Shown: in pieces, positions 3,608 to 29,046 of the stretch
How the letters are laid out: the number at the start of each line of letters is the position of its first letter
Position numbering within the stretch: the first letter of the stretch is position 1
Source: a virus
Virus record (IMG/VR): IMGVR_UViG_3300047666_000641
Span: 1 to 29,070 of that record
Direction: 5' to 3' (one strand)
Length of the DNA: 29,070 bases
Program-made: the position numbers and the translations under genes
Notes under the pieces: model-generated
Seen by the model: the letters and a program-made list of their open reading frames with translations, nothing else
Databases searched by the model: none
What the model was told of the DNA's origin: nothing

Positions 3608-5350
3608 ATGTCAAAAGATAGAAGCTCAGATACCTATAGCCGCAAGGTCCGTGAGGCATATAATCAAAATACCATGTCCAAGGGGATCAAAATTCCGTCT
3701 GGCGTTTACCGTGGAATTGTGGTTAATAATCAAGACCCTGTCAAAAAAGGCCGGATCAGAGTACAGATTATGAAATTCTATGGAACAGCCGTTGTTGGCT
3801 CTGATGCAGATGCAACCAACAACTCTGATGGCAGTGAATGGGTGGGTGCAATGTGGTGCCGCCAAATGCTGCCAACAGGTGGAACGACTGTACCAGAAGG
3901 CGAGGCAGGCTCGGTAGGACAAACTACATACGGTGCATTTGGTCCGCCGCCCAGTCTAGGCAATGAGGTATTAGTCGCCTTTGGTGGTGATATGCACAGT
4001 GGTATTGTTATCGGGGTATTGCCCGATATTGACAGAAGTGACGGCATTGCTGGCGCTGGCATCCAGCGTGAAACCACCGCTGGAAACACAATGTCACTAG
4101 AAACCCCTAAGACTGCTAACTCGGCAGACGCTACGCCATCACCACATCCACAAAACGCCGCATTGATAAACCAAGGGATACAAGACGATCTCGTGCGGGG
4201 CCAAAACACCAGTTCCCCCGCACGCGATCCAAGTTCGCGAGTTGGTGGTATGAGCAGCCCAGCAGGACATTCTATTGTCATGGACGATGGTAGCTTGGAA
4301 GACGGACAGGGGTTGCGTATGCGGCTACGAACTGCGGGTGGTGCACAAATTCTTATGGATGATACGCTAGGGTTAACCTACATCAACAACCGTGAAGGCA
4401 ATGTTTGGATTGAATTAAATCGCAATGGCGATATGGACATCTATGCAGGTGGTAGTATCAATTATCATGCTGAAAATGACTTCAACGTACATTGTGGTGG
4501 AAATTTTAATGTACAATCTGGCGGCGACATTAATATGAAATCACTAGGCGCACAAGGAATAAAAATGGAGGCGGCAAGAGGCAGTTTCAATATGAAATGT
4601 GCAGCCAACATGAATTTACAAGCTGACGCAAACGGTAATATTCGGGTCGCAGGCAACTACCGTGAAACTGCTGGCCGCATCGATATGAATGGCCCAGCAG
4701 CAGCCGCCGCAGCAACCCCATCCATTGTCCAGCATGCAGGCAACACAAACATAACTGAAAGCGTGTCGACACGTGTACCAGAGCATGAACCATGGGCAGG
4801 CCACTTAGACGTGTCTACGCGACCATCGGGCACAACAAGTAGTGATACTACATACTATGGTGCTCCGGTCGATGTGGAAAGTTTCGACGGCCAAACGGGT
4901 AGCTTGTCATTTAATGACTTTTCCAGAGTAACATTACCACCAAATTCACGATTGTCCTTCCAATCAGGCGTCGATACTCGTGTCGATCCGGCACTCATTA
5001 CCACTATGGAAGAAGTCGCCCGCCAATTTGGTCGCTCGTTAGTTATTTCCAGTGGTGCACGTGATCCAACTAGAAATGAAACTGCTGGCGGCGCAACAAA
5101 CTCACAGCATCTTCTTGGCCATGCAGTCGACGTATCCGGCGCAGCACTTTCAAATGCTGACCGAATTTCACTGGTTAAAATTGCAAGTACGATAGGCATA
5201 CGCGGCATCGGGGTATACTCAGGTGGCGGCATGCACTTTGATAATCGAACAGGCGCAAGAGCAGGATGGGGCAATAATTACTCTTATACATCATTGGCAG
5301 CATATGTCGCACCAACAGTAAACAAACACCGCGCAGGAGGATTTTCATAA
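3608..5350 (+). CDS. 5: Baseplate spike/hub protein, gp5-like, with C-terminal M15 zinc peptidase
   Basis: The 580-residue protein begins with an OB-fold (about residues 29-142: GVYRGIVVNNQDPVKKGRIR ... GNEVLVAFGGDMHSGIVIGV), as in T4 gp5 and VgrG. A spike region follows (about 213-370): SSPAGHSIVMDDG, GGAQILMDDTLGLTYINN, then repeats such as GDMDIYAGGSINY and GGNFNVQSGGDINM that suit a triple-stranded beta-helix. Unlike T4 gp5, I see no lysozyme domain between OB fold and helix. Instead residues about 460-565 resemble the M15_3 peptidase family: NSQHLLGHAVDVSG supplies H501 and D508 and GMHFDNR supplies H543, the expected zinc ligands. It would pierce the outer membrane and cut peptidoglycan peptides. 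SD AGGAAG precedes ATG. The stop overlaps the next start as TAATG. Confidence 0.88.
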   Translation: MSKDRSSDTYSRKVREAYNQNTMSKGIKIPSGVYRGIVVNNQDPVKKGRIRVQIMKFYGTAVVGSDADATNNSDGSEWVGAMWCRQMLPTGGTTVPEGEAGSVGQTTYGAFGPPPSLGNEVLVAFGGDMHSGIVIGVLPDIDRSDGIAGAGIQRETTAGNTMSLETPKTANSADATPSPHPQNAALINQGIQDDLVRGQNTSSPARDPSSRVGGMSSPAGHSIVMDDGSLEDGQGLRMRLRTAGGAQILMDDTLGLTYINNREGNVWIELNRNGDMDIYAGGSINYHAENDFNVHCGGNFNVQSGGDINMKSLGAQGIKMEAARGSFNMKCAANMNLQADANGNIRVAGNYRETAGRIDMNGPAAAAAATPSIVQHAGNTNITESVSTRVPEHEPWAGHLDVSTRPSGTTSSDTTYYGAPVDVESFDGQTGSLSFNDFSRVTLPPNSRLSFQSGVDTRVDPALITTMEEVARQFGRSLVISSGARDPTRNETAGGATNSQHLLGHAVDVSGAALSNADRISLVKIASTIGIRGIGVYSGGGMHFDNRTGARAGWGNNYSYTSLAAYVAPTVNKHRAGGFS

Positions 5351-6063
5351 TGTTAACTATAGTTGCAGCCCAATACCGCATACAATGGGAAACCTTTACC
5401 GTACAAAATGCATTTGCAGTTGACTATCGTTATCCGGTACGTAGGGCAACTGTGAGTGACGGAATGAAAGACCTGATACTTAGCCGCCGCACATGGTCAG
5501 GCGTCCGTAAAAAAGACCCTACAACAGGAAAATATGTCATCGGATATGGCGTAGGTGATCCCGACGACGTACAAGGGTATACTGAATCGCAGGCATACGC
5601 GGAATGGGTTGGTGACTTGCGTAATCGTCAGAAACGTCTTATTGCACAGTTGCCAATATTATATGTCACACAAACAATATTTGACGCACTACTAAGTCTG
5701 TATATTGACACTGGTACATGGAGAACTGTGCAAGCAGAAGAAGGCACGTATGATCTCGCCACGTCCGTAAAAGATGGGAATTGGTTATTAGCTGCGGATA
5801 TTATATCACGAGGCAAAATCAATAATGATCTGCGGAAAAAAGAAGCACGGGCGATGCGATTAGGTGACTATAGTTTTACTAAAACGCGCAATCAACAAGT
5901 TGCTCAAGGCGTGCAACTATTGCGCACACAATACGTAGCGGGAATTGCCAATGAATTTGATAAAAAGCAAACAGAATTTGTATACTATCGACAGTTTGGT
6001 ACATTTTTGCCAGGAATGACACAATTGCGGCAACGCAGAGTAATTGCACAAGCTAGAACTTAA
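5350..6063 (+). CDS. Lysozyme-like (GH24 fold) baseplate-linked protein, probably inactive
   Basis: In this 237-residue protein, residues about 38-172 resemble T4-lysozyme-type GH24 enzymes: WSGVRKKDPTTGKYVIGYG matches the usual 'EGxRLxAYxDxxGxxTIGYG', GYTESQAYAEWVGDL matches the helix after the hairpin, and QTIFDALLSLYIDTG matches the 'FDALVSFxFNxG' helix. The catalytic Glu is replaced: the SG at 50-51 occupies the usual EG position; D56 and the IGYG turn remain. In T4 the lysozyme domain sits inside gp5; here the fold is in the gene just after gp5, coupled by TAATG, so it may be a displaced spike lysozyme that kept a structural role. The C-terminal ~60 residues are not recognised. Its stop overlaps the convergent gene in the 4-nt palindrome TTAA. 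Confidence 0.65.
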   Translation: MLTIVAAQYRIQWETFTVQNAFAVDYRYPVRRATVSDGMKDLILSRRTWSGVRKKDPTTGKYVIGYGVGDPDDVQGYTESQAYAEWVGDLRNRQKRLIAQLPILYVTQTIFDALLSLYIDTGTWRTVQAEEGTYDLATSVKDGNWLLAADIISRGKINNDLRKKEARAMRLGDYSFTKTRNQQVAQGVQLLRTQYVAGIANEFDKKQTEFVYYRQFGTFLPGMTQLRQRRVIAQART

Positions 6064-6353
6064 CCATATTTTAGCTTCATCATGACTTTTCCTCCGTCAG
6101 AAATTTCTGTATTTTCTTCCAGCCATTCATCAAACGTATAAAATCGACGACCGTTCAAATACCATTGCTTGTTACCATCTGCCTCTTCAATAGCTGGCCC
6201 GTCAGTGCGGTGAATTCTGTCGTTCAACCACCAATAGTTGTCACCATCCGCCCATTCAGCGGCAGGTCCGTCTGTACGGTGGTAGTCGCCGTTCATCGTC
6301 CAAAATTTGTTGCCTGTGCTATCCGTAGTCATTATTGGCGTTGTATCAACCAT
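6060..6353 (-). CDS. DGPA-repeat protein A
   Basis: This 97-residue protein is the last member of the minus-strand array. It has two 'HRTDGPAxExADG' units spaced 23 residues apart (YHRTDGPAAEWADGD, IHRTDGPAIEEADGN), each followed by an aromatic strand (WWLN, WYLN). It ends with the family's conserved tail YTFDEWLEENTEIS..KVMMKLKYG. The pattern suggests a short beta-hairpin repeat sheet, somewhat MORN-like, plus a C-terminal helix. No catalytic motif, signal peptide or membrane segment is seen, so function is unknown. Its first ~50 residues almost match protein B, and the DNA over about 140 bp is about 95% identical, so A and B are a recent duplicate pair. Its start lies inside the last codons of B. 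Its stop TAA overlaps the stop of the convergent lysozyme-like gene. Confidence 0.8.
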   Translation of the reverse strand: MVDTTPIMTTDSTGNKFWTMNGDYHRTDGPAAEWADGDNYWWLNDRIHRTDGPAIEEADGNKQWYLNGRRFYTFDEWLEENTEISDGGKVMMKLKYG

Positions 6354-6355
6354 AT
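6213..6355. repeat. Direct repeat, copy 1 (paralogue A)
   Basis: About 140 bp recur at 6496-6638, 283 bp away, with about six mismatches seen by eye. It covers the N-terminal half of genes A and B including both start junctions, so it marks a recent tandem duplication. Confidence 0.85.
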
Positions 6356-6636
6356 TGTAACTTTAACATAACTTTATCTTCCTCAGTTAATGCGCAATTT
6401 TGATCAAGCCATTCATCAAACGTATAATGATTGCCATGTAACCACCATTCCTTGTTGCCATTTGCCGATTCAATAGCGGGTCCGTCAACTCGGTGAATTC
6501 TGTCGTTCAACCACCAATATTTGTCGCCATCCGCCCATTCAGCGGCAGGTCCGTCTGTACGGTGGTAGCCGCGATTCATCGTCCAAAATTTGTTGCCTGT
6601 GCTATCCGTAGTCATTATTGGCGTTGTATCATCCAT
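6346..6636 (-). CDS. DGPA-repeat protein B
   Basis: This 96-residue paralogue has two repeat units (YHRTDGPAAEWADGD and IHRVDGPAIESANGN) and the tail YTFDEWLDQNCALTEEDKVM. It shares the N-terminal DTTPIMTTDSTGNKFWTMN with A, and diverges from A after the second DGPA unit. The ATG is nested in the final Tyr-Gly codons of the upstream gene C (tATGGATGA), an 8-nt overlap that implies translational coupling. It is a soluble, Trp-, Asp- and Gly-rich protein of unknown function. I see no separate ribosome-binding site beyond the overlapping coding sequence. Confidence 0.8.
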   Translation of the reverse strand: MDDTTPIMTTDSTGNKFWTMNRGYHRTDGPAAEWADGDKYWWLNDRIHRVDGPAIESANGNKEWWLHGNHYTFDEWLDQNCALTEEDKVMLKLQYG

Positions 6637-6638
6637 AT
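6496..6638. repeat. Direct repeat, copy 2 (paralogue B)
   Basis: Partner of 6213-6355. Identity falls sharply in the C-terminal halves of the genes, so duplication was followed by divergence or gene conversion of one half only. Confidence 0.85.
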
Positions 6639-6979
6639 TGTAGCTTCATCATGACTTTTTCTTCATCTGAAATTTCTGTATTTGCTTCCAGCCATTCTTC
6701 AAACGTATAGTATCTGCCGCGCAATCGGAATTCTACATACCCATCAGCAAATTCAACCGCAGGACCATCTGTTCGGTGAGTGCTGCCGTATTGGCACCAA
6801 AATCTGCCACCATCTGCGCATTCAATAGCAGGACCGTCAGTGCGATGATTTTCCCCATTCAACCGCCATATCTTGTCGCCATCCGCCCATTCAGCGGCAG
6901 GCCCATCTTCGCGATGCAGTCGACCATGCAATCGCCAAAATTTGTTGCCCTTCCGATCTATTTCCATCTTTGGTTCCAT
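6629..6979 (-). CDS. DGPA-repeat protein C (three repeats)
   Basis: The longest member of the family (116 residues) has three units at exact 23-residue spacing: LHREDGPAAEWADGD, NHRTDGPAIECADGG and THRTDGPAVEFADGY. The conserved tail YTFEEWLEANTEISDEEKVM then follows. The extra unit relative to A and B suggests growth or loss by whole 69-bp repeats. The start codon forms a TAATG overlap with the stop of the upstream zinc-ribbon gene, so C is translated as part of that transcript. No known function; nothing suggests secretion or membrane location. Confidence 0.8.
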   Translation of the reverse strand: MEPKMEIDRKGNKFWRLHGRLHREDGPAAEWADGDKIWRLNGENHRTDGPAIECADGGRFWCQYGSTHRTDGPAVEFADGYVEFRLRGRYYTFEEWLEANTEISDEEKVMMKLQYG

Positions 6980-7821
6980 TATGCGACCATCGCTTTGGCT
7001 GGCCGCTTGAAGAACCCGTACTTGGGATCATTGTCGGATACTGTGATCGTTGCGGTAAAGATAACCTGTTGGCCTTTTTTAACTTCAGCAAGAGCCTTTG
7101 GGACTGTGCCCCATACTTTCCATCCTTCGGCATGCTGAACCAGCATCTTAGTCACATAACCAAACTCTGTTTCCTGTCCTTTCAGGGTGAGTACAGCGCC
7201 CGTCACGACCATACGGCCTTCTACAGGGATAGGCAACGCTGCTGCCACCTCTGCGGCCCGCTGTTCGGCAATCTGTGCACGATCCACGATCCGGCCAAGA
7301 AGATTGCCAATGAATGATTTTTGCTTATCCGATATACTACCATACTGGACCAACTTACGAACAATGTCGTAGATGGTGTTTTCTTCCCACTTTGGGTCGA
7401 AGTCAAGTCCGCCATCATAGATGGCCCATGCGGCAGTCAAGTTGGCGTTCTCAAGGAAAACTTGTGCCTTCCGCTTACCCGCTGCGGCGTCAATACCTTT
7501 CTTGGCTTTAACACGGAAGCTGCGGAAATTAAGTGCATCACCCTCATGCAACTTTTCAGCACAATCTTCACCAGTCTGGACATAAGTGTTGCTTGGAACA
7601 TGGTGAAAGCGAGCAACAGTCATTGCATGTGCGCCGCAAACGTGGCACGAGCCGCCGTGGTTATGACGGGAGAACTTGCCACCTGTCTTAGCCATGTGAG
7701 TGCGAAATTGCTCTTGCTCAATAAGGTTGACTACATAATCGTCATGATGACTGTGGAACGATACGAACTGATAATCGTCAGGATTAATAACGCTAGGGCG
7801 GTGAATGTCAGTGCGTGTCAT
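6979..7821 (-). CDS. Zinc-ribbon and OB-like protein of unknown function, inserted in the DGPA array
   Basis: This 280-residue protein has three recognisable parts. Residues about 53-92 form a likely zinc-binding knuckle: H53/H55, C59-x2-C62, H73/H74 and C87 (GSCHVCGAHA ... TGEDCAEKLH). A helical middle contains a Lys/Ala-rich segment (105-120) and the motif YGSISDKQKSFIGNLLGRI (160-178). Residues about 203-280 look like an OB-type beta-barrel (WKVWGTVPKAL ... KYGFFKRPAKA). Similar VWGTVP/GFFKRP proteins, as I recall, occur in phages without known function; nucleic-acid binding is a reasonable inference. It resembles neither the DGPA proteins nor structural genes and is GC-richer (60-nt lines I counted gave 48%, 55% and 65%, against 33% for one giant-gene line). 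It has its own sigma70-type promoter and AAGGAA 7 nt before ATG. Its stop overlaps gene C as TAATG. Confidence 0.75.
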   Translation of the reverse strand: MTRTDIHRPSVINPDDYQFVSFHSHHDDYVVNLIEQEQFRTHMAKTGGKFSRHNHGGSCHVCGAHAMTVARFHHVPSNTYVQTGEDCAEKLHEGDALNFRSFRVKAKKGIDAAAGKRKAQVFLENANLTAAWAIYDGGLDFDPKWEENTIYDIVRKLVQYGSISDKQKSFIGNLLGRIVDRAQIAEQRAAEVAAALPIPVEGRMVVTGAVLTLKGQETEFGYVTKMLVQHAEGWKVWGTVPKALAEVKKGQQVIFTATITVSDNDPKYGFFKRPAKAMVA

Positions 7822-7822
7822 G

Positions 7823-7882
7823 TCATGTTTCCTTTTTGCTTACTTGTTCTTTATAGCAGCAAGGCGCTATGGTGTCAACCAT
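7823..7882 (-). other. Short overlapping ORF (19 codons), possible relic or coupling peptide
   Basis: An ATG nested in the last codons of gene D, exactly where the next paralogue starts at other array junctions, opens a 19-codon frame beginning MVDT (as protein A does) and ending in TGA 1 nt before ATG 7821. It may be what is left of a displaced paralogue start, or a coupling leader. The similarity beyond the constrained Tyr-Gly-stop region is only a few bases. Confidence 0.25.
7850..7878 (-). promoter_or_regulatory. Sigma70-type promoter for the zinc-ribbon gene
   Basis: On the minus strand TTGACA (7878-7873), a 17-nt spacer and TATAAA (7855-7850) form a near-perfect housekeeping promoter. 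The -35 element overlaps the stop codon of DGPA gene D (gGTTGACA). Transcription would begin near 7843, about 20 nt before ATG 7821, with AAGGAA in between. Confidence 0.75.
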
Positions 7883-8156
7883 ATTGTAGCTTAAACATGA
7901 TCTTTTCTTCGTCAGTCATATCTGGGTTGTTATCAAGCCACGTTTCAAATGGCATACCAATGTCATCCAAAAACCACCATTTATCCCCATTTATCCATTC
8001 AATAGCAGGACCATCTGTGCGGTGACGGTTTCCGTTTAAATACCATTCTTTATGCCCATCTGCATGTATCATGGCAGGGCCATCTTCGCGGTGAAGTTTG
8101 CTGTCCAACTTCCAAACTTTGACACCAGACGCATATTCGAATATGCCTGTCTTCAT
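7875..8156 (-). CDS. DGPA-repeat protein D
   Basis: This 93-residue paralogue has two units: LHREDGPAMIHADGH (with the usual AE replaced by MIH) and RHRTDGPAIEWINGD. The tail varies more (MPFETWLDNNPDMTDEEKIM) but ends in the family's KLQYG. The start forms a TAATG overlap with the stop of gene E. It is the last paralogue before the inserted zinc-ribbon gene, and its stop codon lies inside the -35 element of that gene's promoter. Function unknown. Confidence 0.8.
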   Translation of the reverse strand: MKTGIFEYASGVKVWKLDSKLHREDGPAMIHADGHKEWYLNGNRHRTDGPAIEWINGDKWWFLDDIGMPFETWLDNNPDMTDEEKIMFKLQYG

Positions 8157-8386
8157 TATCCATATTCCAATTTATACATCACTTTTTCTCCGTCAGTCAT
8201 ATGTGGGTGTTGATCAAGCCATTCTTCAAATAAATAGGGTATGCCAAACAAATACCACTCCTTGTTGTCCTTCCCAGTCGCCCACTCAATGGCAGGACCA
8301 TCTTCGCGGTGAAGTCTGGCGTTCAACTTCCAAAATTTGTCACCATACTTATTTACAGTAATCACAGGTTGCACATCTTTATCCAT
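8156..8386 (-). CDS. DGPA-repeat protein E (single repeat)
   Basis: The shortest member (76 residues) has one unit, LHREDGPAIEWATGK, between the conserved N-terminal strand GDKFWKLNARL and the tail YLFEEWLDQHPHMTDGEKVM. The minimal form shows what is conserved regardless of repeat number: an opening FW/WKLN strand, at least one DGPA unit, and the acidic C-terminal helix ending in Tyr-Gly. Its ATG is nested in the last codons of gene F (tATGGATAA), an 8-nt overlap. Function unknown. Confidence 0.78.
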   Translation of the reverse strand: MDKDVQPVITVNKYGDKFWKLNARLHREDGPAIEWATGKDNKEWYLFGIPYLFEEWLDQHPHMTDGEKVMYKLEYG

Positions 8387-8678
8387 ATTCCAATTTATAC
8401 ATGACCTTTTCTTCGTCGGTCAATTCTTGATTTTTGTCGAGCCATTCGTCAAACGTATAACGACCGTCGTTTAGATACCAACTCTTGGCACCATATGCAT
8501 ATTCAATTGCAGGTCCATCAGTTCGGTGAAGTCTGCCGTCAATCCACCATTCCTTGCGGCCACTCACCAATTCAACAGCGGGTCCGTCAATGCGGTGAAG
8601 TCTGATGAAATTATTGCGCCACCACCTGTCGCCCGCGCCTGTCTCCGTCATTACAGATTGCATATCACTCTCAGCCAT
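8379..8678 (-). CDS. DGPA-repeat protein F, first gene of the array
   Basis: The frame is open from 8750, but the better start is ATG 8678 (MAESDMQSV, 99 residues): AAAGGAT lies about 6 nt upstream, and a sigma70 promoter predicts a transcript beginning near 8691, inside the longer frame. There are two units (LHRIDGPAVELVSGR and LHRTDGPAIEYAYGA) and the tail YTFDEWLDKNQELTDEEKVM. The N-terminal strand (DRWWRNNFIRL) differs from the usual NKFW. It leads the polycistron F-E-D and probably, by read-through, the downstream genes. Function unknown. Confidence 0.8.
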   Translation of the reverse strand: MAESDMQSVMTETGAGDRWWRNNFIRLHRIDGPAVELVSGRKEWWIDGRLHRTDGPAIEYAYGAKSWYLNDGRYTFDEWLDKNQELTDEEKVMYKLEYG

Positions 8679-8697
8679 TGTATATCCTTTGTCGTTA

Positions 8698-8726
8698 ATT
8701 ATAAGGTACATTATCTGTATTGTCAA
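8698..8726 (-). promoter_or_regulatory. Perfect-consensus sigma70 promoter for the DGPA array
   Basis: TTGACA (8726-8721), 17 nt and TATAAT (8703-8698) on the minus strand match the housekeeping consensus at all 12 positions. Transcription would start near 8691, giving a 13-nt leader with AAAGGAT before ATG 8678. It lies back to back with the late motif of the gp25-like gene. Confidence 0.87.
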
Positions 8727-8750
8727 TACCAAAAGGCACTTTTCAGTCAC

Positions 8751-8757
8751 ATAAATA
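8751..8757 (+). promoter_or_regulatory. Late promoter motif (CATAAATA) before the gp25-like gene
   Basis: ATAAATA ends only 5 nt before ATG 8763. With T4-like spacing the transcript would begin at about the start codon, so the message would be almost leaderless. No Shine-Dalgarno sequence is seen between them. Confidence 0.5.
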
Positions 8758-8762
8758 ACAGT

Positions 8763-9128
8763 ATGGTAACATTTGTAGGCTTCTCAACATACGGAAAAAG
8801 AACAGGAACCAATGTCCTAGAAGATAAGGACTTGGCAATTCGTGATCTATTAAATCATTTTTACACCCGCCGTGGTGAGCGGTTAGGAGAACCGTCGTTT
8901 GGCAGCATCCTACCAGAATTGATATTTGAGCAGTTAGACCAATTAGTAATTGACACCGCAGATGAAGACGTCCGCACAATTATTGATTTGGACCCTAGAT
9001 GGCGACTGATAGATTATGAAATTGACGCAATCGGGCACGCATTGACTATCAAGATTCAACTAAGTTATGTTCCCGACTTGAGTCAAGAACAATTGGTATT
9101 AAAATACACTAGCACAGAAGAGATTTAA
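8763..9128 (+). CDS. 25: Baseplate wedge protein, gp25-like
   Basis: This 121-residue protein belongs to the gp25/GPW family. It shows the hallmark LGEPSFGSILPELIFEQ (about residues 41-57), preceded by DLAIRDLLNHFYTRRGERLG and followed by DPRWRLIDYEIDA and a terminal beta strand (LTIKIQLSYVP). In T4, gp25 forms with gp6 and gp53 the core of the inner wedge and helps trigger sheath contraction. Its length is close to T4 gp25 (132). The frame is open upstream from 8526, but ATG 8763 gives the correct family N-terminus; the longer frame would run through the minus-strand array. Three nt separate it from the gp6-like gene. There is no clear ribosome-binding site. Confidence 0.9.
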   Translation: MVTFVGFSTYGKRTGTNVLEDKDLAIRDLLNHFYTRRGERLGEPSFGSILPELIFEQLDQLVIDTADEDVRTIIDLDPRWRLIDYEIDAIGHALTIKIQLSYVPDLSQEQLVLKYTSTEEI

Positions 9129-9131
9129 CAC

Positions 9132-12100
9132 ATGGCACAAAGCATCCGACAAAGAAATCTGTTCGCAGCAGAAGATTACAGAGTAGTTTACGATAGTTTC
9201 AAGCAGGCGAATTTCCAAGCCTATGATTATGACACCATCCGTGGTGCATTGGTAGATTATATCCAGCAACAATATCCTGAAAACTTCAATGACTGGATTC
9301 AAAGTTCTGAATTTGTGGCGCTGATTGAAACACTGTCGTTTCTCGCACACTCATTAGCCTTCAGAATTGACCAAACAGGTCGCGAAAACTTCTTGAGCAC
9401 AGCCGAACGCCGCGCGAGCGTTTTGCGTATTGCTGACTTTTTAGGATACACTCCAAGCCGTCACCAGCCTGCGCGAGGTCAACTCAAGGTAACTGGCATC
9501 CGTACCACACAAGACGTGTACGACATCAATGGACGTACCCTTAAGAATACTACCGTCGACTTCGAAGATAACTACCAGAATTTCTTGCTTATTATGAATG
9601 AAGTTCTAGGCAATGTCAACAAATTTGGCCGACCAACCGATACGTCGCGCATCGGTAACATCAAGCATGACATTTATGCGACAAGCATTGAAGCTGGTCA
9701 CAATGTGGTGTTTGGTGTCCAAGGCAAGGTAAATGGCAATAGTGGTAACTTTGAAATTCATGGATTAGAAATCGACAATTCTTCCAACGTATTACTCGAA
9801 ACCGCCCCAGACCAAAATAAAAGTTTTGACATTGTTTATAAGAATGATGGACAAGGCATCGGCAGTGAAGACACTGGTTTTTTCGTTGGGTTCAAGCAAG
9901 GTAATTTACAATTCACCGACGTCAACGCCACAACCGCTATTTCCAACTTGGTGGTTGACTTATCAGCCACCAATGTCAATAACAGCGACATCTGGGTTCA
10001 GGAAATTAACACTGCTGGTGAAATCCAAGACACATGGACAAAGATTGATAGTGGGTTTGGAGCAAACACAGTATTTAATAACATTCGCCAAGACAATCGC
10101 AAGCTATACACAGTCAAAACAATGGACCAAGACAACGTCAATATTCAATTTGGTGACGGAGTATTCAGCGACATTCCTCGTGGCATCATTCGTATTTGGT
10201 ATCGCACAGGTGTAAACCAAACATACACCCTTGATACAGACGACATCGGCATTGTAACATTCGGATATACCTACACTGTTAGTCAAGACACTGGATCAGA
10301 TAATACGCACAAGGTGACGTTTACGTGTGAACTTCAATCACCTGTAACTAATGCATCTTCACAGGAAAGTGTGACTAGTATTAAAAATAATGCTGGCCGA
10401 GTATTTGCTACACAAGACCGTATGATTACAGCCAGTGATTATTCAATTTACCCGCTGACGGTCAGTGAAAACGTTAATAAAATTAAAGCGGTCAATCGTA
10501 CATATAATGGACACAGTCGTTTTATCAAGCCACAAGACCCGACGGGCACATACCAGAACGTTGACATGCTCGCGGACGATGGCTACATTTACAGCGAAGG
10601 CATTACGTACAGGTCAAATCTTGCGTTACCGTCTACCCTAACGTCTGAACAAATATATGAACGCTTCATTGCAGACTTAATTGAAAATCCTGAAATTGTC
10701 AATTTATTCTATACCAAATATGACGTAACTGAGATTGACTTTTCGACATCAGTGGGTAGCTATGAGTGGCAGCAGATCACGTCAGGATACCGTGGTAGTA
10801 CAGGTTATTTGACACTTAATAGTGAAATTCAAAAAGCTGGCAAAAACGCAACTAATGACTTAGTCACGGCTGCTCCAGGATCAATTGTAGAATTTATTGA
10901 AACACCATATAATGCAGGTACATTAGGCGTGATCGGCCAAACATTAAGTATCATTAACGCAGGTAGTGGTTACACCAGTGCACCAACTGTAACCGTACAG
11001 GGCACAGGCACGGGGGCTACGGCAACTGCAACTGTATCTGGTGGCCAACTTGCGGCCATCACGTTGACAAATGGTGGCACAGGCTATCAAAACCCTGTAG
11101 TTATAAGTATTTCTGGTGGCGGCGGCGCGGGCGCAGAAGTTGTGGCTGTGGCCACAACTGCTTCACGTAGTTGGGCTAGAGTAGTCGATATTGTGAACGA
11201 CGGTCAAGGTATCAACGACAGCAACGGCAACCCAACGGGATTGTCTAGTCGTGGCCAAGGTGCAATAATTCTCAATAAGAGCATCCCCAACACTGCTAGA
11301 ATATCACAAATATTTCCCGCATATTCAACCGTGTTTACTGCCGATGAAAAAGTTGCCATTATTGACGAACTAGAAAAGTCAAATACATTTGGGTTACGGT
11401 ATGACACCACAACCCGTGAGTGGATAATCATACACGCGGGTGACTTGCCGTCGGAAAATTCAAATAGTCCTGATAATTTTAACATTTCTAATGCAGGCGA
11501 CAACAGCAACAGTAATGCAGATCAATCATGGATCGTGCGGGTACAGTATACGGTTAATGCGTGGCGCTTCATCAGTCGCCGTACACGATATGTGTTTGGC
11601 AGTAATGACCGCATCAGGTTCTTTAACCAAAATGGTAACCGCCGCTTTAATGTAGAGACCAATAAGCCTGACCGTGATCGTGTAGTTGTTTCCAAGATCA
11701 ACACCATCCCAGGTGGCAGTGTGTATCCAATTGGCGAAGATTTGCCATTCTATACATATCGCTATTACACTGGGACAGATGGGTACACTGATGATCGTAA
11801 AGTTATTGTTACATTGGCCGACATTGACAACGACAACTATCCTGATAATCCGCTGGCATTCCGCACATTAGTTGATGCTGACACCATCAATCTTGGCACC
11901 GTTTCAGAAGATGGTTATTCATATGTTGCACTTAGCGACGTTGGGACAGCGACTGCTGGCCGTCAAAATTTGACATTTGTATGGAAACGGATCAGTACCA
12001 GCGACTATAGAATTGACCCAAGCCTTTCAAACATTATTGATATCTTCGTTCTTAACCAAAATTATGATGCTAAATATCGTGAGTGGATAGCAGATAGTCG

Positions 12101-26976: not shown

Positions 26977-26998
26977 CCATAAGACATAAGGAAAGTCA

Positions 26999-28225
26999 AT
27001 GACTGAAACAAATAGAGACACCCTTAAAGGGGACATTGCAACCAACTTACCCGATAACTCGACAGGTGAAATTTCACCCGCTGATATCCGCAATGAATTA
27101 GTTAAATTGACAGATAGTGTACCGTTTAAATATACATCGCAAACAATTCCACCAGTTGCAGACGACGATATTAATGGCACTGCTGGTAATGGGTCATTTG
27201 GAATTGGCGACTCTTGGGTAGATGGTGCTTCTGGCATTATTTACATTTGTGCTGACAATACAGCTAACGCTGCAATTTGGCAAATATCAGCCACTAACTT
27301 TGCCGTTATTGGTGATGGTGACGCTGCAATTAATCAAATTGCAATTTGGCAAGATGATTCAGTTGTAGTCGGCACGTCAGACTTTACATATGCTGCTGGT
27401 GTATTGGACGTAGAAGGAACAGTTGCAGCAACAGATTTTACAGGTGACGGCTCAGCATTAACTGGCGTTGCATCAAGCGCACAAGGTGCGTTGGCCGATA
27501 CAGCTACCCAACCAGAAGACTTGGGCACGTCCGCAGTCGAAGATGTAGGCTATTTTGCAACCGCAGCACAAGGTGCGTTGGCCGATACAGCCACTCAGCC
27601 AGAAGATTTGGGCACAGCTGCAGTCGAAGATGTAGGCTATTTTGCAACCGCAGCACAAGGCGGAACAGCCGACACAGCATTACAGCCTACAGGAGATGGA
27701 ACACAGCTTACAGGTATCAGTTCTGCTCAAATCGGCTTAGGTAATGTAGATAATACTGCTGATACGACCAAACCTGTGTCTACTGATCAACAAACTGCAC
27801 TTGATTTAAAAGAGGATGCAGATGCAACAATATCCAAAACAGGTGTAGCTGAGATAAGAAGTGCTTCTATTGATATGAATGATAACGTACTACAGGGTGC
27901 AGAAATTAAGGACTATGCAGAAACTGTAGTTGCAATGGCTGCTAGTGATATTGATTTGTCTGCTGGTAACGTACATACCATCGCAATCAGCGCTTCTGTG
28001 ACCCTTACATTCTCTAACCCACCAGTATCAGGCAAAGCTGGCGCATTCACATTGATTTGTACTATGAGTGGCGCACCAGTGATTACGTGGCCTGCTAGCG
28101 TGGCATGGCCCGCAGGCACCGCTCCTACGCTAAGTACATCAGGCAAAGATATATTCAGTTTTTTGACTACTGACGGCGGCACAACTTGGTATGGATTTGC
28201 AGCAGGACTGGAAATGTTGTTATGA
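26999..28225 (+). CDS. Tail fibre protein with internal tandem repeat
   Basis: This 408-residue fibre starts with an N-terminal region (ISPADIRNELVKLTDSVPFK; IPPVADDDINGT) of the kind that anchors fibres. The module NQIAIWQDDSVVVGTSDF follows, then ATDFTGDGSALTGV, two almost identical 29-residue repeats (residues 161-189 and 190-218; ADTATQPEDLGT), and the widespread fibre signature GLGNVDNTADTTKPVSTDQQ. The C-terminal ~85 residues (VTLTFSNPPVSGKAGAFTLI ... DGGTTWYGFAAGLEMLL) match a fibre-end domain. SD AAGGAAAG precedes ATG. Its stop overlaps the next ATG (ATGA), coupling it to the glycine-rich protein, an arrangement expected of a fibre and its tip adhesin. Confidence 0.82.
   Translation: MTETNRDTLKGDIATNLPDNSTGEISPADIRNELVKLTDSVPFKYTSQTIPPVADDDINGTAGNGSFGIGDSWVDGASGIIYICADNTANAAIWQISATNFAVIGDGDAAINQIAIWQDDSVVVGTSDFTYAAGVLDVEGTVAATDFTGDGSALTGVASSAQGALADTATQPEDLGTSAVEDVGYFATAAQGALADTATQPEDLGTAAVEDVGYFATAAQGGTADTALQPTGDGTQLTGISSAQIGLGNVDNTADTTKPVSTDQQTALDLKEDADATISKTGVAEIRSASIDMNDNVLQGAEIKDYAETVVAMAASDIDLSAGNVHTIAISASVTLTFSNPPVSGKAGAFTLICTMSGAPVITWPASVAWPAGTAPTLSTSGKDIFSFLTTDGGTTWYGFAAGLEMLL
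27479..27652 (+). repeat. 87-bp in-frame tandem repeat, two copies and a partial third
   Basis: Copies at 27479-27565 and 27566-27652 encode the same 29 residues except one (Ser/Ala). A third copy begins at 27653 and diverges after GCACAAGG. Differences between the two copies are mostly synonymous. The repeat adds a unit to the fibre shaft and could change fibre length by recombination. Confidence 0.9.
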
Positions 28226-29046
28226 TTGGTAATAAATTAAGATTTGGTGGTGGTATTATTACGGGTATTATTGCTACCGGAGGTACTAAGTATACATCTG
28301 GTGATTACACGATACATAAGTTTACAAGTTCAGGAACATTTAATGTTTCTAGCAATGACGCTAACCAGACTGCTGAAGTATTGGTGGTTGCTGGCGGCGG
28401 CGGTGGTGGTGGTCAAATGGGTGGCGGCGGTGGGGCTGGAGGGCTAATATATAGCTCTGCTCTTAGTATAGCAGCAACCACTTATGGTGCCACTGTCGGC
28501 TCAGGGGGAACTGGGGGTGTTCAGGCTGGTAGCGCTGGCGGCAATTCAACTTTTAGTACAATGACTGCTATCGGCGGTGGTGGTGGTGGATATTATAATG
28601 CTTTTGGTGGTAATAATGGAGGTTCCGGTGGCGGCGGTGGTGGTGGTACGACCCCATCCATAGGCGGAACTGGAAGCCAAGGATATGATGGCGGAGATGG
28701 TGCTAATGATAATTACTATCCCGGTGCTGGGGGTGGAGCAGGTGAAGCTGGAGAAAATGGAGTTTTTGGTAGGGGTGCTATAGGTGGAGATGGACTGCCA
28801 TATGATATATCTGGAACAAATCTTTATTATGCTGGTGGCGGTGGCGGTGGAGGTTACTATGGTAACGGTACATGGACTGGAGCTGGGGGACAAGGCGGTG
28901 GCGGAATAGGGACTTCCTCTAACGGCGGTGATGGAACAGATGGAACAGATGGTCTCGGCGGCGGAGGTGGCGGAGCTGGATGGAGCACCGGAACAGGTGG
29001 AACAGGTGGTTCTAGTGTTATACTCATCAGATATTTAACAACTTAG
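28222..29046 (+). CDS. Glycine-rich tail fibre tip adhesin
   Basis: The ATGA overlap with the preceding fibre sets the start at 28222 (274 residues). After a short N-terminal segment (MIGNKLRFGGGIITG) comes YTIHKFTSSGTFNVSS and AEVLVVAGGGGGGG, the signature of the phage glycine-rich domain. Most of the rest is runs of 5-8 glycines separated by variable loops (GGGGGGYYNAFGGNNGGSG; YPGAGGGAGEAGENG; YYAGGGGGGGYYGNG), and it ends SSVILIRYLTT. Such proteins fold as polyglycine sandwiches whose loops bind the receptor, as known for the T2/T6-type gp38 adhesins; here the comparison is of architecture only. Short 9-bp repeats near the end (GTDGTDG, GTGGTGG) could vary loop length. It is likely the host-range determinant of the preceding fibre. 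Confidence 0.75.
   Translation: MIGNKLRFGGGIITGIIATGGTKYTSGDYTIHKFTSSGTFNVSSNDANQTAEVLVVAGGGGGGGQMGGGGGAGGLIYSSALSIAATTYGATVGSGGTGGVQAGSAGGNSTFSTMTAIGGGGGGYYNAFGGNNGGSGGGGGGGTTPSIGGTGSQGYDGGDGANDNYYPGAGGGAGEAGENGVFGRGAIGGDGLPYDISGTNLYYAGGGGGGGYYGNGTWTGAGGQGGGGIGTSSNGGDGTDGTDGLGGGGGGAGWSTGTGGTGGSSVILIRYLTT

Follow-up and report, generated by a model that had tools for sequence, protein, structure and literature searches.

Why should a virus keep, inside the plus-strand module that encodes its baseplate, a run of small paralogous genes on the opposite strand? The question is raised by a stretch of 29,070 nucleotides (nt) from a T4-superfamily myovirus (positions 1 to 29,070 of IMG/VR record IMGVR_UViG_3300047666_000641; hereafter the window), whose gp5-like protein is closest to the versions of Atu_ph07 and Phosso, at 25–27% identity. 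At 6060–8678, six paralogous minus-strand genes, called here DGPA genes after their repeat, have a lysozyme-like gene on their left and a gp25-like baseplate gene on their right. A 66,277-bp IMG/VR contig matches positions 1–28,247 at 99.9% identity (28,248 bases) and contains a near-identical array, which rules out an assembly artefact. A first reading made from the sequence alone had placed six open reading frames (ORFs) here, and we find them at these positions, from left to right 97, 96, 116, 93, 76 and 99 amino acids (aa) long, correctly described as lying within a plus-strand baseplate module (gp5/lysozyme, gp25, gp6-like). It had also described a dedicated six-gene operon; the six members are present, but the run is interrupted, because an unrelated 280-aa gene splits it three and three. 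The account that we favour, tentatively, is that these genes would encode protein-binding adaptors with a MORN-like fold, made early and not built into the virion, and that the array, at a variable site, would work like a viral counterpart of the homogeneous polyimmunity locus, a bacterial arrangement of tandem paralogous inhibitor genes whose anatomy the DGPA array resembles (PMC3482391).

The lysozyme–gp25 junction is a cargo site

Using the flanking genes as probes, we read the same junction in relatives (loci are labelled L plus a number). It is empty, with a length of 35–40 bp, in three groups (L187, L193 and L199); in the six loci shown (L202, L205, L208, L213, L234 and L239) it holds a plus-strand HNH endonuclease gene, recognised by eye from an HNH-type motif; and in L177, L178, L183, L192, L194 and L196 it holds other small minus-strand ORFs. 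There is one DGPA gene in L180 and in L197, five in L176, six in the window and at least 10 in L186, the arrays of L176 and L186 both being cut by contig ends. These varied contents mark a place of exchange with DGPA arrays as one cargo type, and the lysozyme–gp25 junction is thus a cargo site. The HNH genes in the junction of relatives are as expected of a homing site.

Because the array sits between the lysozyme and gp25 genes, its products could also be minor virion proteins, either MORN-like ribbons decorating the baseplate or tail fibres, or proteins packaged and injected. Related arrays in L276 have a neck-like gene of 247 aa on one side and a sheath-like gene on the other (both identified by eye), and Atu_ph07 virions hold 131 detected proteins, most of them without assigned function (PMC6102473). 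However, the array is on the opposite strand with sigma70-type promoter sites of its own, close relatives keep the flanking baseplate genes without it, and family members are also found upstream of a DNA polymerase gene and, in a podovirus, before the genes for primase and polymerase. We consider a place in the virion quite unlikely.

Promoter-like sites of the array

Where strong separate promoters had been claimed, two sigma70-type sites were found by consensus, P1 (12/12) ahead of gene 1 and P2 (11/12), which reads into the 280-aa gene and then members 4–6. Positions 5300–9300 contain no terminator-like site. Relatives with minus-strand cargo mostly have a similar site scoring 10–12/12 within ∼30–45 nt of the gp25 side, and the best promoter-like sites of empty and HNH junctions score 8–9. 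A score of 12/12 is reached at just three sites of the 66-kb contig, namely P1 and a further two ahead of minus-strand genes in the recombination-nuclease region (identities by eye). Base-composition shuffles of this contig gave about two sites scoring at least 11 and more were observed, although one match to a consensus does not establish function.

P2 moreover belongs to a 29-nt promoter-like family, TTGACACCATRRCGYCTTGMTGCTATAAA, with a conserved leader, which occurs exactly in eight IMG/VR stretches. The family, with a similar leader, follows DGPA genes in L176 (two sites), L171/L274, L038/L272 and L276, where it stands before different genes; its −35 element often overlaps a DGPA stop codon, and one copy in L272 has no preceding DGPA gene. 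Judged by its sequence, this is a lineage-specific promoter-like class often carried by DGPA 3′ ends. From this class and the genomic setting of relatives, we infer that the DGPA genes may be expressed early. Contigs of the L171, L038 and window types come from the same metagenomes.

A widespread and previously undescribed repeat family

The six proteins share an N-terminal aromatic strand, 23-residue units of the form HRxDGPAxExADGxKxWYLNG and a C-terminal FDEWL...EEKVMxKLQYG ending. The 12 units counted earlier are recovered, with HRxDGPA cores from gene 1 to gene 6 of 2 + 1 + 2 + 3 + 2 + 2, and the alignment has 20 invariant columns. A tblastn search with one member recovers the other five with best-match E values of 3e-25 to 1e-11, so the likeness among members far exceeds chance.

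A profile search with the aligned proteins had been proposed as a check; searches of family databases gave a partial Pfam match to DUF6745 (PF20530) and no PHROG, NCBIfam or PADLOC family that is informative for the six window proteins. One window protein exceeds the curated Pfam cut-off for DUF6745 (30.1 versus 27 bits), and a match is also seen in 42 of 52 relatives, but the match covers only ∼35 of 206 model positions, with its best stretch at model positions 64–97, and thus marks shared repeat sequence rather than the entire domain. No MORN (PF02493) match was found in the window proteins; MORN_2 matched 5 of the 52 relatives weakly (best E 0.0066), and a PDB sequence search with the family profile returned nothing at E up to 1. 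Our literature searches turned up no publication dealing with DUF6745 or with a repeat of the DGPA type.

The family is nevertheless widespread: relatives are encoded in at least 522 IMG/VR stretches and at least 110 GTDB stretches, both lower bounds from pattern scans, and named phages with members include P12053L and Atu_ph07. The FDEWL...EEKVMxKLQYG ending was found in no relative outside the immediate lineage of the virus. Expansion is extreme in a 121,933-bp contig (L164–L166) with 163 repeat hits and a 203,774-bp contig (L172–L173) with 57; in these two contigs single proteins carry 12–13 units. Tandem runs of two or more genes occur at 37 of 59 viral and 10 of 70 cellular loci, which were picked by similarity and are not an unbiased census, and arrays thus appear to be chiefly a viral habit. 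A Pfam scan of 10 long DGPA-containing ORFs gave one methyltransferase fusion only; a CsgG match was discarded because it came from a protein with a chance DGPA. Several arrays stop at contig ends. MORN repeats are reported to be 37 times enriched in long reads (PMC9238414); since repeat arrays break assemblies, abundance may be underestimated.

A predicted MORN-like fold

The AlphaFold model of the 116-aa member (gene 4) has a predicted local distance difference test score (pLDDT) of 96.9 and a predicted template modelling score (pTM) of 0.85, and pairs short strands in each unit. In a Foldseek search of the PDB, MORN proteins lead the matches, with MORN4 (probability 1.00), Toxoplasma and Plasmodium Morn1 (0.99), Trypanosoma MORN1, radial-spoke proteins and junctophilin, among others. 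The MORN unit is a 23-residue beta-hairpin plus loop, and MORN repeats have been argued to be protein–protein interaction modules (PMC7725318). In the model, DGPA proteins likewise form a predicted ribbon of 23-residue beta-hairpins. The nearest viral models are uncharacterised phage proteins and giant-virus proteins, some named MORN repeat proteins, and a similar fold is predicted at no more than 51% identity for relatives from Atu_ph07, P12053L, uncultured Caudovirales and the giant viruses Mimivirus (R871), Harvfovirus and Powai lake megavirus. A MORN placement, which the sequence-only reading had named beforehand as counting against itself, is therefore found for the predicted fold and not for the sequence family, and it gives no function.

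Genomic setting of relatives

In L171, DGPA genes are upstream of a phage DNA polymerase gene, on the same strand and with one small gene between; in the Celeribacter podovirus P12053L, the member (AFM54614) sits among small genes, two away from ThyX and before the genes for primase and polymerase; and Atu_ph07 has seven or so scattered members (AUZ94863, AUZ94888, ASV44699, AUZ95025, AUZ95137, AUZ95138 and AUZ95347), some near ThyX. In Atu_ph07 (L281 and L280), DGPA genes lie directly downstream of nicotinamide mononucleotide (NMN) adenylyltransferase and nicotinate phosphoribosyltransferase genes. The earlier view of an early, non-structural operon is likely in light of the sigma70 promoter sites, the absence of the array from relatives that keep the baseplate genes, and these positions upstream of polymerase or ahead of podovirus primase and polymerase.

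The same neighbours could instead suggest early accessory factors of nucleotide or DNA metabolism, which would serve as adaptors for replication enzymes of the phage or the host and not in counter-defence. This would suit the nicotinate phosphoribosyltransferase, NMN adenylyltransferase and ThyX genes near Atu_ph07 members, the ThyX gene of P12053L and the polymerase of L171, but a range from 0 to at least 10 copies at one site among relatives is ill-suited to a core metabolic role, and to this explanation we assign a low probability.

A survey of neighbourhoods, also proposed as a check, gave a variable cargo junction and, in some viruses, places upstream or ahead of replication genes, and no dominant defence or toxin neighbours in bacteria. 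The Pfam tally of 118 bacterial-genome neighbours consists mainly of helix-turn-helix domains, alongside two DNA methylases and two anti-restriction proteins of the ArdC type, numbers too small to carry an argument. Superinfection exclusion or competition, in which the proteins would shut out other phages or counteract the toxins of competing elements, could draw on the polyimmunity-like anatomy and on the MORN_2 matches; MORN_2 repeats occur in YwqK-type antitoxins. These matches are weak, however, and no toxin gene was recognised beside the arrays, and we judge such a role very unlikely.

Turnover, mosaicism and selection

Comparison with the near relative L176, whose gp25 is 91% and whose 280-aa protein is 90% identical, indicates how the array changes. 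Gene 4 is a mosaic: its first 51 nt have 92% nucleotide identity to the L176 paralogue h4, its repeats 2–3 and C-terminus 88–89% to h5, and its repeat 1 is close to neither. The recent duplication noted earlier is confirmed by genes 5 and 6, which are 76% identical in protein and 92% over 164 nt. Diversifying selection, suggested by the same reading, was not borne out. The dN/dS ratios are 0.10 (gp25), 0.25 (280-aa gene), 0.38 (gene 3) and 0.43 (genes 5/6), with a range of 0.19–0.43 across the DGPA pairs measured, and the repeat-level pN/pS is 0.03–0.10 at constant positions and 0.74–0.83 even at variable ones. With these ratios below 1, diversification comes mainly from gene turnover and recombination. 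The pattern of constrained scaffold residues and freely varying positions fits a binding family, without proving positive selection. C-terminal codons have a higher synonymous codon identity (0.66) than repeat cores (0.48), perhaps because this stretch also serves the start of the next gene. T4 can amplify a counter-defence gene in tandem through recombination (PMC9391042), which by analogy makes a recombination route plausible here without showing it.

Such strong turnover and mosaicism might be produced by self-proliferating repeat genes, recombination-prone cassettes that duplicate via short homologies with little benefit to the phage; the recurrence of a promoter joined to a gene 3′ end at several loci, and copy numbers as extreme as 163 hits in one contig, would fit as well. 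Six intact frames and the strong constraint on scaffold codons speak against this, and we hold it improbable.

Proposed function of the array

In the account of adaptors at a variable site, the six genes would be cargo of a T4-superfamily myovirus, and host-type sigma70 promoters would drive their early transcription in the direction opposite to that of the structural operon. Each protein would be a short ribbon of MORN-like beta-hairpins with a two-helix cap, serving as a soluble binding module in which constant residues (HR, DGPA, G13 and W17) hold the ribbon and variable positions make the contact face. Co-translated paralogues with differing faces might then bind several host proteins or variants of one, and unequal recombination between units and paralogues would yield new faces. 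The targets would most plausibly be host defence or takeover proteins, by analogy with the tandem paralogous inhibitors of bacterial polyimmunity loci; an anti-defence target is the least secure step of the proposal. A bolder form, which we regard as unlikely, is that such arrays are viral polyimmunity loci proper, across phages and giant viruses, with MORN-like decoys or inhibitors that are expressed as infection begins, that each neutralise a different defence protein of the host and that are renewed by repeat recombination.

Several observations weigh against the adaptor account. The Foldseek matches to MORN structures are modest (template modelling score ∼0.44, best E 5e-3), hence we claim a MORN-like architecture and not common descent. 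The ratios of dN/dS below 1 do not point directly to an arms race, searches of PADLOC and NCBIfam returned nothing for the six proteins, and the neighbours in bacterial genomes have no dominant toxin or defence association. Moreover, P1 is not a member of the 29-nt family, the best promoter-like sites of L177 and L186 lie further off, and some Atu_ph07 relatives may sit in or near a virion-rich gene cluster.

Layout of the locus

The features of the locus are listed in Table 1. Adjacent DGPA members overlap by 8 nt or 1 nt, and in several cases the Y-G-stop end (TATGG(A/T)TRA) of one gene holds the ATG of the next, so they are probably translationally coupled. The 3′ end of gene 6 overlaps that of the lysozyme gene by 4 nt. 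The 280-aa protein is Cys/His-rich in its N-terminal part (C59xxC62...C87), its C-terminal ∼80 aa match phrog_18425/4750/4265 (unknown function), and its structure model was unusable (pLDDT 42.5). The C-terminal ∼80 aa are common to many Klebsiella, Microbacterium and Arthrobacter phages, a few being annotated as single-stranded DNA-binding. The motif CATAAATA at 8750–8757 (+), five bases ahead of the gp25 ATG, is kept even in relatives of ∼48% protein identity; as a late promoter it was rejected, with no genome-wide enrichment in the 66-kb contig (5 versus 8.7 in shuffles). At 26988–28247 is a fibre-like region with related direct repeats around it; the 66-kb contig follows the window almost exactly as far as 28,247, beyond which the two diverge.

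Table 1. Genes and promoter-like sites at the lysozyme–gp25 junction of the window
Feature	Position (strand)	Product or sequence	Remarks
Left flank	5350..6063 (+)	lysozyme-like	structural module
DGPA gene 6	6060..6353 (−)	97 aa, 2 units	recent duplicate of gene 5
DGPA gene 5	6346..6636 (−)	96 aa, 2 units	start codon within ...TATGGATGA end of gene 4
DGPA gene 4	6629..6979 (−)	116 aa, 3 units	mosaic versus L176 paralogues h4 and h5; used for structure model
280-aa gene	6979..7821 (−)	280 aa, non-paralogous	between members 3 and 4; 90% identical to L176 counterpart
Promoter-like site P2	7850..7878 (−)	TTGACACCATAGCGCCTTGCTGCTATAAA, TTGACA-17-TATAAA	11/12; −35 overlaps gene 3 stop codon
DGPA gene 3	7875..8156 (−)	93 aa, 2 units	sole member with clear full-length orthologue (85%) in near relative L176
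DGPA gene 2	8156..8386 (−)	76 aa, 1 unit	8-nt overlap with gene 1
DGPA gene 1	8379..8678 (−)	99 aa, 2 units and C-terminal domain	upstream GTG at 8750 would add 24 aa
Promoter-like site P1	8698..8726 (−)	TTGACA-17-TATAAT	12/12 by consensus
Right flank	8763..9128 (+)	gp25-like baseplate wedge

Comparison with known systems

A very common undescribed phage protein family can now be described by its predicted fold, by its genomic logic (tandem arrays with strong sigma70-type promoter sites at a cargo site) and by testable roles. Almost all members are unannotated and so escape family searches; should the arrays prove to bind defence proteins of the host, they would represent a large pool of counter-defence genes. 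Compared with MORN repeats (PF02493; MORN_2, PF07661), the DGPA proteins are alike in the 23-residue unit, the predicted beta-hairpin ribbon and the best fold matches, whereas their units conserve HRxDGPAxExADGxKxWYLNG and not the MORN consensus YxGEWx2Gx3GxGx3Yx2Gx2, and they carry a lineage-specific two-helix C-terminus. DUF6745 shares part of the repeat sequence only, and is itself without known function. Phage morons and variable accessory sites likewise have their own promoter (here by consensus) and are present or absent between conserved genes, but the DGPA array is multi-gene and paralogous, has no terminator found in 5300–9300, and belongs to a lytic-type myovirus. Unlike homogeneous polyimmunity loci, the DGPA array is viral, split by an unrelated gene, without a toxin partner and not of a known immunity family. 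With those loci it nevertheless shares tandem, co-oriented and closely spaced paralogues (8-nt or 1-nt overlaps here) of small putative binding proteins, and a gene number that varies among relatives, from 0, 1, 5 and 6 to at least 10 at the DGPA junction, the 5 and 10 being cut by contig ends.

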